Source: Sphaerisporangium rubeum (lineage in GTDB: Bacteria; Actinomycetota; Actinomycetes; Streptosporangiales; Streptosporangiaceae). From it: DNA of 64,000 nt. The DNA lies in NCBI RefSeq assembly GCF_014207705.1, contig NZ_JACHIU010000001.1:4642501-4706500 (forward strand), written 5' to 3'. Positions 38,122-39,998 of the stretch are shown here, piece by piece; within the stretch, counting starts at the first letter, position 1; every line of letters starts with the position of its first letter. Under the pieces are notes generated by a model. The model was not told the origin of the DNA, made no database searches, and saw nothing but the letters and a program-made list of their open reading frames with translations. Made by a program: the position numbers and the translations under genes.

Positions 38122-38730
38122 CTACGCGGGACCCTCGCCGGGGTCCTCCTGGTAGGAGTACCGCTGCTCGCGCCAGGGGTCGCCGACGTTGTGGTAGCCC
38201 CGGTCCTCCCAGAATCCGCGCCGGTCCTCGGTGAGGTACTCCACGGCGCGCACCCATTTCACGCTCTTCCACGCGTACAGGTGGGGCACGACGACCCGCA
38301 CCGGGTGGCCCCGGTCGGGGGTGAGGGGCTTGTCGTCGAGCTCGGTCGCGAACAGCGTGGTGTCGCGGTCGAAGTCCGCCATGCGCAGGTTGGCGCTGTA
38401 GCCGTACTCACCCCAGATCATGACGTGCCGGACGTCCGGCGCCGGTGGCGCGGCGGCGAGCAGCGCGCCGGCCGGCACGCCACCCCATTCGTTCCCCATC
38501 AGGGAGAACTTCGTGACGCAGTGGAAGTCGGCGAGCACGTTGACCTTCGGCAGGCCGGAGAACTCCGGCCACGTGAGGCGGGTCTCCTCCCCCGAGGCGG
38601 TGGCGCCGAAAACCGAGAAGCTCCAGGTCTCCGGCCGGAACGCCGGGACGCGTCCGTAGTGGACGACCGGTCGGCCGCGCGGGACGTACTGCCCGGGGGG
38701 CAGTCGGTCTTCCTCGGTAGAGTCCGGCAC
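38122..38730 (-). CDS. Sulfite oxidase-like molybdopterin-dependent oxidoreductase
   Basis: Protein of 202 residues of the sulfite oxidase/MsrP fold, binding a Mo-molybdopterin through the conserved Cys in DFHCVTKFSL (near 70). The substrate-channel segments GHPVRVVVPHLYAWKSVKWV and WEDRGYHNVGDPW are typical of the short bacterial branch (YuiH-like). No signal peptide, haem domain or dedicated membrane partner is visible, so it is probably cytosolic; substrate unknown. Confidence 0.88.
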   Translation of the reverse strand: MPDSTEEDRLPPGQYVPRGRPVVHYGRVPAFRPETWSFSVFGATASGEETRLTWPEFSGLPKVNVLADFHCVTKFSLMGNEWGGVPAGALLAAAPPAPDVRHVMIWGEYGYSANLRMADFDRDTTLFATELDDKPLTPDRGHPVRVVVPHLYAWKSVKWVRAVEYLTEDRRGFWEDRGYHNVGDPWREQRYSYQEDPGEGPA

Positions 38731-38819
38731 GCAGTCATCCTCCCATCGCGTCCCGCGCCGCGCGGCATCGGCACCCGGGGGCGGCGCGGCGGTCGAGGGC
38801 TGCGCTACACTCGATCACG

Positions 38820-38894
38820 ATGCGTACAGCGATCGAGTTTTGGTATGGCGACGGACCCGTGGAGCGGACCGTTCGCCGTCAGACGCTGCGCTGA
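38820..38894 (+). CDS. Leader peptide with Phe-Trp-Tyr regulatory codons
   Basis: Short open frame of 24 codons beginning MRTAIEFWYGDG and ending in TGA 15 bases before the terminator stem. One codon for each aromatic amino acid (TTT, TGG, TAT at 38838-38846) stands side by side near the middle, matching the end products of the pathway that the downstream enzyme starts. It is too short for normal gene calls. Its role as a sensing peptide is inferred from composition and geometry. Confidence 0.85.
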   Translation: MRTAIEFWYGDGPVERTVRRQTLR

Positions 38895-38908
38895 CAGGTA
38901 AACGTCAC

Positions 38909-38944
38909 AAAGGCCCCGGGTCCATCTGGACCCGGGGCCTTTTT
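38909..38944 (+). terminator. Intrinsic terminator of the aromatic attenuator
   Basis: Fifteen perfect base pairs (38909-38923 with 38928-38942), 4-base loop ATCT, and a T-tract 38940-38944. It is the only stem in the window that I found with such a clear T-tract, and lies 22 bases before the DAHP synthase start codon. Confidence 0.93.
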
Positions 38945-38966
38945 CGTTGCGGGAAGGACGAAGAAC

Positions 38967-39998
38967 ATGGTCATCGTCATGGCTCCGGAAGCCACTCGGC
39001 AGGACGTCGACGCGGTCGTCGAGGTGGTCGCCGCGGCAGGCGGCAGCGCGTTCGTCAGCCGCGGCGTGAGCCGCACGATCATCGGGCTGGTCGGGGACGT
39101 CGCGCAGTTCGGCACACTCGACCTCGCCGGCATGCGCGGCGTGGCCGACGTCATGCGCATCACCGCGCCGTACAAGCTGGTCAGCCGGGAGAACCATCCC
39201 GACCGGACGACGGTGCGGGTCGGTGGTGTGCCGATCGGTCCCGACACGGTGACGCTGATCGCGGGGCCGTGCGCGGTGGAGACCCCCGACCAGACCCTGC
39301 AGGCCGCGCTGATGGCCAAGGCCGCCGGCGCCACCCTGCTGCGCGGCGGCGCCTACAAACCCCGCACCTCCCCCTACGCCTTCCAAGGACTCGGCGTCGA
39401 AGGCCTGCGCATCCTCACCGACGTACGCGAACAGACCGGGCTCCCCATCGTCACCGAGGTCGTCGCCGCCGACGACGTCGCCACCGTCGCCGAACACGCC
39501 GACATGCTCCAGATCGGCACCCGCAACATGCAGAACTTCCCCCTGCTCCAAGCCGTCGGCGCCGCCGGACGGCCCGTCATGCTCAAACGCGGCATGAGCG
39601 CCACCATCGAGGAATGGCTCATGGCCGCCGAATACATCGCCCAGCGCGGCAACCTCGACATCGTCCTGTGCGAACGCGGCATCCGCACCTTCGAGACCGC
39701 CACCCGCAACACCCTCGACATCTCCGCCGTCCCCGTCGTCCAGCGCCTGTCCCACCTCCCCGTCATCGTCGACCCCTCCCACTCAGGAGGCCGCCGCGAC
39801 CTGGTCCTGCCGCTGACCAGGGCGGCGGTGGCGGTCGGCGCGGACGGCGTGATCATCGACGTGCATCCGCACCCAGAGCAGGCGCTGTGCGACGGGCCGC
39901 AGGCCTTGGTGGACGGTGACCTCGACGCGCTGGCCGGCGTCATGCGCGACCTGCCGCCGCTGGTGGGCCGCACCGCCGCGGCGCTCACCCCGGCGTGA
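38967..39998 (+). CDS. aroF: 3-deoxy-7-phosphoheptulonate synthase (DAHP synthase, type I-beta)
   Basis: First enzyme of the shikimate pathway, joining PEP and erythrose 4-phosphate. The 343 residues comprise a short N-terminal ferredoxin-like regulatory domain (about 1-72) and a catalytic TIM barrel with IAGPCAVE near 98, RGGAYKPRTSPYAFQG near 124, LKRGM near 207, and IVDPSHSGGRRD near 266, containing the metal ligands and PEP-binding Lys/Arg. The GGAAGGA ribosome site precedes ATG 38967. Control by the FWY attenuator directly upstream is predicted. Confidence 0.96.
   Translation: MVIVMAPEATRQDVDAVVEVVAAAGGSAFVSRGVSRTIIGLVGDVAQFGTLDLAGMRGVADVMRITAPYKLVSRENHPDRTTVRVGGVPIGPDTVTLIAGPCAVETPDQTLQAALMAKAAGATLLRGGAYKPRTSPYAFQGLGVEGLRILTDVREQTGLPIVTEVVAADDVATVAEHADMLQIGTRNMQNFPLLQAVGAAGRPVMLKRGMSATIEEWLMAAEYIAQRGNLDIVLCERGIRTFETATRNTLDISAVPVVQRLSHLPVIVDPSHSGGRRDLVLPLTRAAVAVGADGVIIDVHPHPEQALCDGPQALVDGDLDALAGVMRDLPPLVGRTAAALTPA

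Follow-up and report, generated by a model that had tools for sequence, protein, structure and literature searches.

The trp and pheA attenuators of Escherichia coli work through exclusive 1:2, 2:3 and 3:4 pairings, with the control codons placed ahead of strand 1. In the multivalent attenuators of the ilv and thr operons, a single leader senses several end products. Among actinobacteria, 'LVVI' codons are given for ilvB1 of Mycobacterium tuberculosis in the accessible part of PMC13236596. As far as the accessible parts of the respective papers go, the aroF leader of Corynebacterium glutamicum carries Phe-Tyr-Phe according to small-RNA data (PMC4046766), aroF transcription rises on Phe limitation with no effect of Tyr (PMC11802643, a review), and leader replacement has already been used to relieve aroF control (PMC7356990). 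In Streptomyces lividans TK24, seven of eight leaders are described as leaderless, and neither DAHP synthase nor chorismate mutase is represented among the eight (two for Leu, two for Trp, and one each for Ala, Ile, Met and Thr) in the portion of the report available (PMC8079986). A comparative study from 2005 found, in its accessible text, no conserved RNA structures upstream of actinobacterial Phe and Tyr operons (PMC1262725). No title or abstract opening that we found names a Phe-Trp-Tyr (FWY) leader before the gene for DAHP synthase or that for chorismate mutase, full texts being covered in part.

The window studied here, a stretch of 64,000 nucleotides from Sphaerisporangium rubeum, contains an FWY leader before a type I-beta DAHP synthase gene, which is probably a widely spread variant of a known attenuator type. 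With E. coli trp and pheA it shares mutually exclusive pairings and control codons before strand 1, whereas those systems sense one amino acid each and have an untranslated 5′ part in their transcripts; here, the transcript is probably leaderless, and 1b:3b extends the predicted antiterminator outwards. The multivalent ilv and thr attenuators likewise assign several pathway end products to one leader, but these are branched-chain amino acids or threonine and not aromatics. In motif and proposed function, the locus resembles C. glutamicum aroR, also an actinobacterial leader-peptide attenuator with aromatic codons before DAHP synthase. It differs from aroR, as described in the parts of the papers available, in having Phe-Trp-Tyr and a type I-beta enzyme instead of Phe-Tyr-Phe, no Trp and a response to Phe only, and in that a four-strand structure and a wide distribution have been worked out here. 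The C. glutamicum precedent (PMC4046766, available part) qualifies the opinion of the sequence-only reading that this is not a textbook case. The same reading considered a leaderless start odd for an attenuator. This is contradicted by S. lividans, likewise a high-GC actinobacterium with leaderless leader peptides, seven of eight according to the accessible part of the report (PMC8079986).

The leader peptide gene (MRTAIEFWYGDGPVERTVRRQTLR), conserved in relatives, is located on the forward strand at 38820–38894, with ATG at 38820, 24 codons, and TGA at 38892–38894. As noticed earlier from the sequence, this frame carries adjacent TTT (38838–38840), TGG (38841–38843) and TAT (38844–38846), and these contiguous control codons (38838–38846, forward) are codons 7–9 of the leader. 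Based on sequence and comparison, TACACT at 38806–38811 of the forward strand, 8 nt before the ATG, is a plausible -10 box of a leaderless transcript whose start would be expected at or next to the ATG. A generic promoter and terminator scan listed no promoter-like hexamer pair in 38600–39100. When the 450 nt upstream of the gene were shuffled with dinucleotides preserved, a leaderless ORF of 10–40 codons with three different adjacent aromatics appeared in 0 of 2000 rounds. The FWY core pattern has a single occurrence in its own genome, and if three mismatches are allowed the 7 matches are no excess over the reversed-pattern control with 8 in all. Comparisons of five leader peptides with NCBIfam and of three with Pfam gave no match.

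Sequence and folding place an intrinsic terminator at 38909–38944 of the forward strand, comprised of a 15-bp stem (38909–38923 with 38928–38942), the loop ATCT and a T-tract. Described earlier as near perfect, the stem is perfect over its 15 bp, and T's run to 38944. The generic scan listed no terminator in 38600–39100, probably because the stem extends into the T-tract; in many relatives T counts behind the stem are modest (the commonest is 3 in 8), in part because the stem takes up T's. The next gene (38967–39998, forward) is of aroF type and encodes 343 aa with matches to PF00793 (6.3e-80) and PF18152 (5.4e-18), in agreement with its earlier assignment to DAHP synthase and specifying type I-beta. 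The likely upstream gene, a 202-aa ORF at 38122–38730, is read from the other strand, which means that this terminator does not serve it.

Four strands are evident in the alignment A1 of 77 representatives. Strand 1 comes directly after the last aromatic codon and strand 2 within the later half of the leader; strand 3a spans the leader's stop and continues beyond it, and strand 3b is the left arm of the terminator. On the forward strand of the window, folding and strand comparison place strand 1 of hairpin P1 (GGCGACGG) at 38847–38854, with its partner at 38869–38877. Strand comparison further places strand 1b (GGACCCG, 38853–38859), the outer antiterminator strand with its partner at 38917–38923; strand 2 (GGACCGTTCGCCGTCAGA, 38866–38883), which serves as the 3′ side of P1 (38869–38877) and as the inner antiterminator strand; and strand 3a (38890–38907), which runs across and just past the leader stop and pairs with strand 2. 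Judging from these sequences, hairpin 1:2 is predicted to tie up strand 2, while 2:3a and 1b:3b together are predicted to make up a two-part antiterminator exclusive with the terminator. Strand 1 is the stretch that a ribosome stalled on FWY would, in the model, at least partly cover.

A single antiterminator pairing, between 38853–38862 and 38914–38923, had been proposed previously. It is real, with nine of ten Watson-Crick pairs and the sole failure at T38860/C38916, but makes up just the outer half of the two-part antiterminator; that proposal lacked strand 2 and the sequence at the leader's stop that it pairs with (2:3a), as well as hairpin 1:2 and the helix at the 5′ end. The 2:3a helix is interrupted in the window's own genome. 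The 5′-end helix, P0, is formed by 38822–38831 (forward) and CGCTGCGC at 38884–38891, and was recognized by strand comparison and also in the MFE structure. P0 joins the first codons of the leaderless mRNA to the region before the leader stop, with a sequence that differs between clades, and perhaps silences untranslated transcripts. A search of 38300–39300 for a T-box or other Rfam RNA, with E up to 1, gave no T-box and brought up only PrrB_RsmZ and two miRNA models, none of which came near its gathering score.

Pairing across relatives was assessed by duplex energies and not by a column-wise pair counter, because, as seen by eye, strand 2 is displaced by a column from clade to clade owing to a bulge; RNAalifold on A1 recovered the terminator only. 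Among the 77 representatives, own strands paired better than swapped ones for 1:2 (−16.8 versus −15.0 kcal/mol; own better in 59/77), for 2:3a (−13.6 versus −11.0 kcal/mol; 64/77) and for strand 1 with the left arm (−16.3 versus −14.5 kcal/mol; 61/77). Each of these was equalled in 0 of 2000 permutations, which ignore relatedness. The control pairing 1:3a had no own-versus-swapped advantage in the same 77, while the control 2:3b also beat all permutations (−12.1 versus −11.2), with own strands better in only 36/77. The longest perfect run, likewise uncorrected for relatedness, exceeded the swapped value for 2:3a and 1b:3b (0/2000), was weakly above it for 1:2 (21/2000 permutations), and gave no effect for the control 1:3a. 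The helices differ by clade, as in CGTTCGCC/GGCGAACG, TGGTCTG/CAGACCA, GTGGT/ACCAC and GGTCGC/GCGACC, and 1:2, 2:3a and 1b:3b still pair in relatives in which the sequences are altered. The alternative pairing that the earlier proposal called for is in this way kept across relatives.

That the locus is a real attenuator, all variants taken together, is very probable. To the reading as a ribosome-mediated four-strand attenuator on a leaderless transcript, in which one leader senses Phe, Trp and Tyr, we assign a probability of about 0.7; regulation itself and the action of all three codons are what we infer from the sequences. With tRNA-Phe, tRNA-Trp and tRNA-Tyr all charged, the ribosome would reach the stop codon and cover strand 3a. 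Behind it, 1:2 would close, and the left arm would be left free to form the terminator, turning aroF off. If any of the three tRNAs were uncharged, the ribosome would halt on TTT, TGG or TAT and cover strand 1. Strands 1b and 2 would then capture 3b and 3a while the right arm was still to be transcribed, permitting read-through into the DAHP synthase gene. If true, the first enzyme of a branched pathway would be tuned by all three end products via nine nucleotides.

The effect of ribosome position was modelled as the energy cost of freeing the left arm in a transcript that extends as far as this arm, in 78 of the 79 ingroup leaders (L130 was left out for its odd picked start). With a footprint of 9 nt, this energy was 5.8 kcal/mol for free RNA, 9.7 with the ribosome at the stop and 13.2 with the ribosome on the last aromatic codon; the values with 12 nt were 5.8, 9.6 and 13.4. 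A footprint of 15 nt gave 5.8, 8.1 and 9.2, and 13.2 two codons earlier. The peak of the codon scan moves relative to the last aromatic codon, from 0/+1 (9 nt) to −1/0 (12 nt) and −2/−1 (15 nt), and at the shortest footprint takes in the codon after the last aromatic. Outside the peak, means were 8–10 upstream, 4–5 a few codons downstream, and about 8–9 near the stop. In this model, the left arm is tied up best when the ribosome stalls on the last aromatic codons or within one codon of them, a placement that would favour the antiterminator. The at-stop state was costlier than free RNA at all three footprints, and partition-function folding showed no useful difference between the states (0.67 for free RNA, 0.72 for stalled and 0.78 for stop), a result that we count against the model.

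Conservation was examined in 200 upstream regions, comprised of 94 (including the two copies of the own genome), 26 loci and 80 stretches, in which some genomes are present twice because they came from two collections. Of these regions, 167/200, own genome included, have an aromatic leader preceded by a -10 box, and these leaders amount to 136 distinct ones by leader plus left arm. F, W and Y all occur within the first 20 residues in 151/167 leaders (123/136 distinct), thus establishing conservation of the FWY codons across relatives, and they are contiguous in 94/167. All three are present in 75/79 ingroup representatives versus 4/12 outgroup representatives. The motif changes with the clade, e.g. 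FWYGDGP, FWRFYGYRP, YFFWYGQPGR and YFFGHLPG. Many of the genera concerned are known for antibiotics derived from shikimate precursors.

A strict criterion (start 5–9 nt after the -10 box, 10–40 codons, three aromatics in six residues) was positive in 165 of 199 testable regions, one region (L027) having only 28 nt upstream, versus a mean of 0.5 and a maximum of 2 in 20 rounds of shuffling, and in none on the reverse strand. In the leader search of all 200 regions, 33, including that of the own-genome paralogue L002, had no leader; a relaxed search of these 33 gave unlike ORFs dense in aromatics in 9. At other genes, the strict criterion was positive in 2/30 type II DAHP synthase loci, 0/9 trpE loci (trpE was found in 9/41 genomes at the cut-off) and 0/30 pheA loci, a few control loci being cut by contig ends so that their stretch may be misplaced. 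Across the phylum, among the best 29 of 185 genomes with a match, 25/29 loci were positive with any start, 20/29 with a -10 box, and F, W and Y lay within ten residues in 22/29 (any start). Full-length matches of the RNA model R1 were also found directly before DAHP synthase in five of these genomes, which belong to other families (G164, G194, G249, G300 and G369). The pairs in R1 are the terminator's only, so it also matches bare terminators, and among the full-length matches inspected L229, L230 and L235 are not aromatic leaders. In g53, a genus of the same family, genomes G062, G100 and G142 had no match to this DAHP synthase and the fourth, G123, has one; the three may use a different enzyme or have gaps in their sequence (84–93% complete).

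The preferred three-way sensing is rated lower than attenuation as such for two reasons: at some footprints the stall peak extends beyond the aromatic codons, and the same attenuator could answer to only one or two amino acids, e.g. Phe, with the other codons kept for spacing or for the RNA. C. glutamicum AroR offers a precedent for this, having Phe and Tyr codons yet a response to Phe only in the accessible part of PMC11802643. Absence of W in 8/12 outgroup representatives points the same way, as does the stall model, where the three positions are not equally good at any single footprint. Against it, 75/79 ingroup representatives retain W, which also turns up in distant families, and the chorismate mutase sister element described below is without W. 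On balance such partial sensing is unlikely, though it deserves to be kept in mind.

Far less probable is an arrest-peptide device, in which the nascent peptide stalls the ribosome on metabolite binding, as in tnaC. In its favour, the residues that follow FWY show good conservation within each clade, and Gly...Pro behind the aromatics is seen again even in distant families. These residues (GDGP, GYRP, QPGR), however, change in step with the underlying RNA strands, whose pairing is maintained, and Gly and Pro would follow from the GGC and CCCG in strands 1 and 1b alone. The terminator is very strong, which would suit a constitutive terminator next to a chance ORF and no regulation; with 0/2000 shuffles, wide conservation, negative controls and an upstream 202-aa ORF on the other strand that the terminator does not end, this explanation is highly improbable. 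We give equally little credence to sensing by tRNA or protein, as in a T-box or a TRAP-like RNA, instead of by the ribosome. The site before an aromatic gene with a terminator at its end would fit, but the Rfam matches (two miRNA models and PrrB_RsmZ) scored far below gathering, and an ORF with matching codons would be left unexplained.

Chorismate mutase serves Phe and Tyr only. Full-length R1 matches were observed beside chorismate mutase in eight genomes of genus g70, probably Streptomyces, and in a single genome belonging to yet another family; PF01817 was confirmed for one of these adjoining genes. A search of genus g70 matched 39/41 genomes, and 38 loci were examined, 29 of them new and nine from the R1 matches. 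Chorismate mutase was present in 38/38, and a leader sharing the RNA architecture of the window's element in 37/38 (L221–L228, L236, L385–L412; L413 has none). The control cluster, as in FVFTYG, contains F and Y without W in 36/37 leaders, L228 being the exception; for L390 and L391 the script first picked another ORF, and for L399 it counted a late W. Since the enzyme serves Phe and Tyr only and these leaders are without W, codon content follows the product. As the clade differs too, F/Y versus FWY leaders would be a contrast rather than a proof, and the element provides a natural contrast for the question of whether codon content follows product.

Codon choice at the control positions is biased. 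In ingroup representatives the last Phe codon is TTT in 72/79 and the first Tyr codon is TAT in 66/78. By comparison, TTT accounts for 3/385 and TAT for 8/281 in 38 ORFs of the window, whose selection for high third-position GC tends to lower such counts, and, in a better comparison without such filtering, for 0/283 and 1/233 in 51 aroF genes of the same loci. The corresponding counts in leaders are 93/154 and 77/116, while other two-fold codons there end in T in 27/133. Because leaders are generally less GC-rich at third positions (0.76 versus 0.96), part of the TTT/TAT shift is general, and some of the preference may be imposed by RNA structure. We infer that TTT and TAT, read slowly by wobble, make the switch more sensitive; rare codons at the stall site would offer a testable case in which the choice of codon sets the gain of an attenuator. 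Taking both elements together, we lean towards the view that Actinomycetota possess an ancient family of aromatic attenuators on leaderless transcripts, in which the codon menu follows the place in the pathway and rare TTT and TAT set the sensitivity.

The own genome has at least three DAHP synthase genes, and the leader was found only at the window's copy (38967–39998). Neither the type II gene L326 (own genome 4241614–4242912) nor the second type I-beta gene, L002 (G000:C1:2394359-2398372), has one. The L002 gene adjoins an ORF that resembles, by eye, prephenate dehydrogenase. Compared with 39207–39806 of the window, the L002 copy is nearly identical over about 540 nt, with a longest identical run of 426 nt, while both ends of the two copies are only 57–80% alike. 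By sequence comparison, this near-identical stretch looks like the product of a recent gene conversion.
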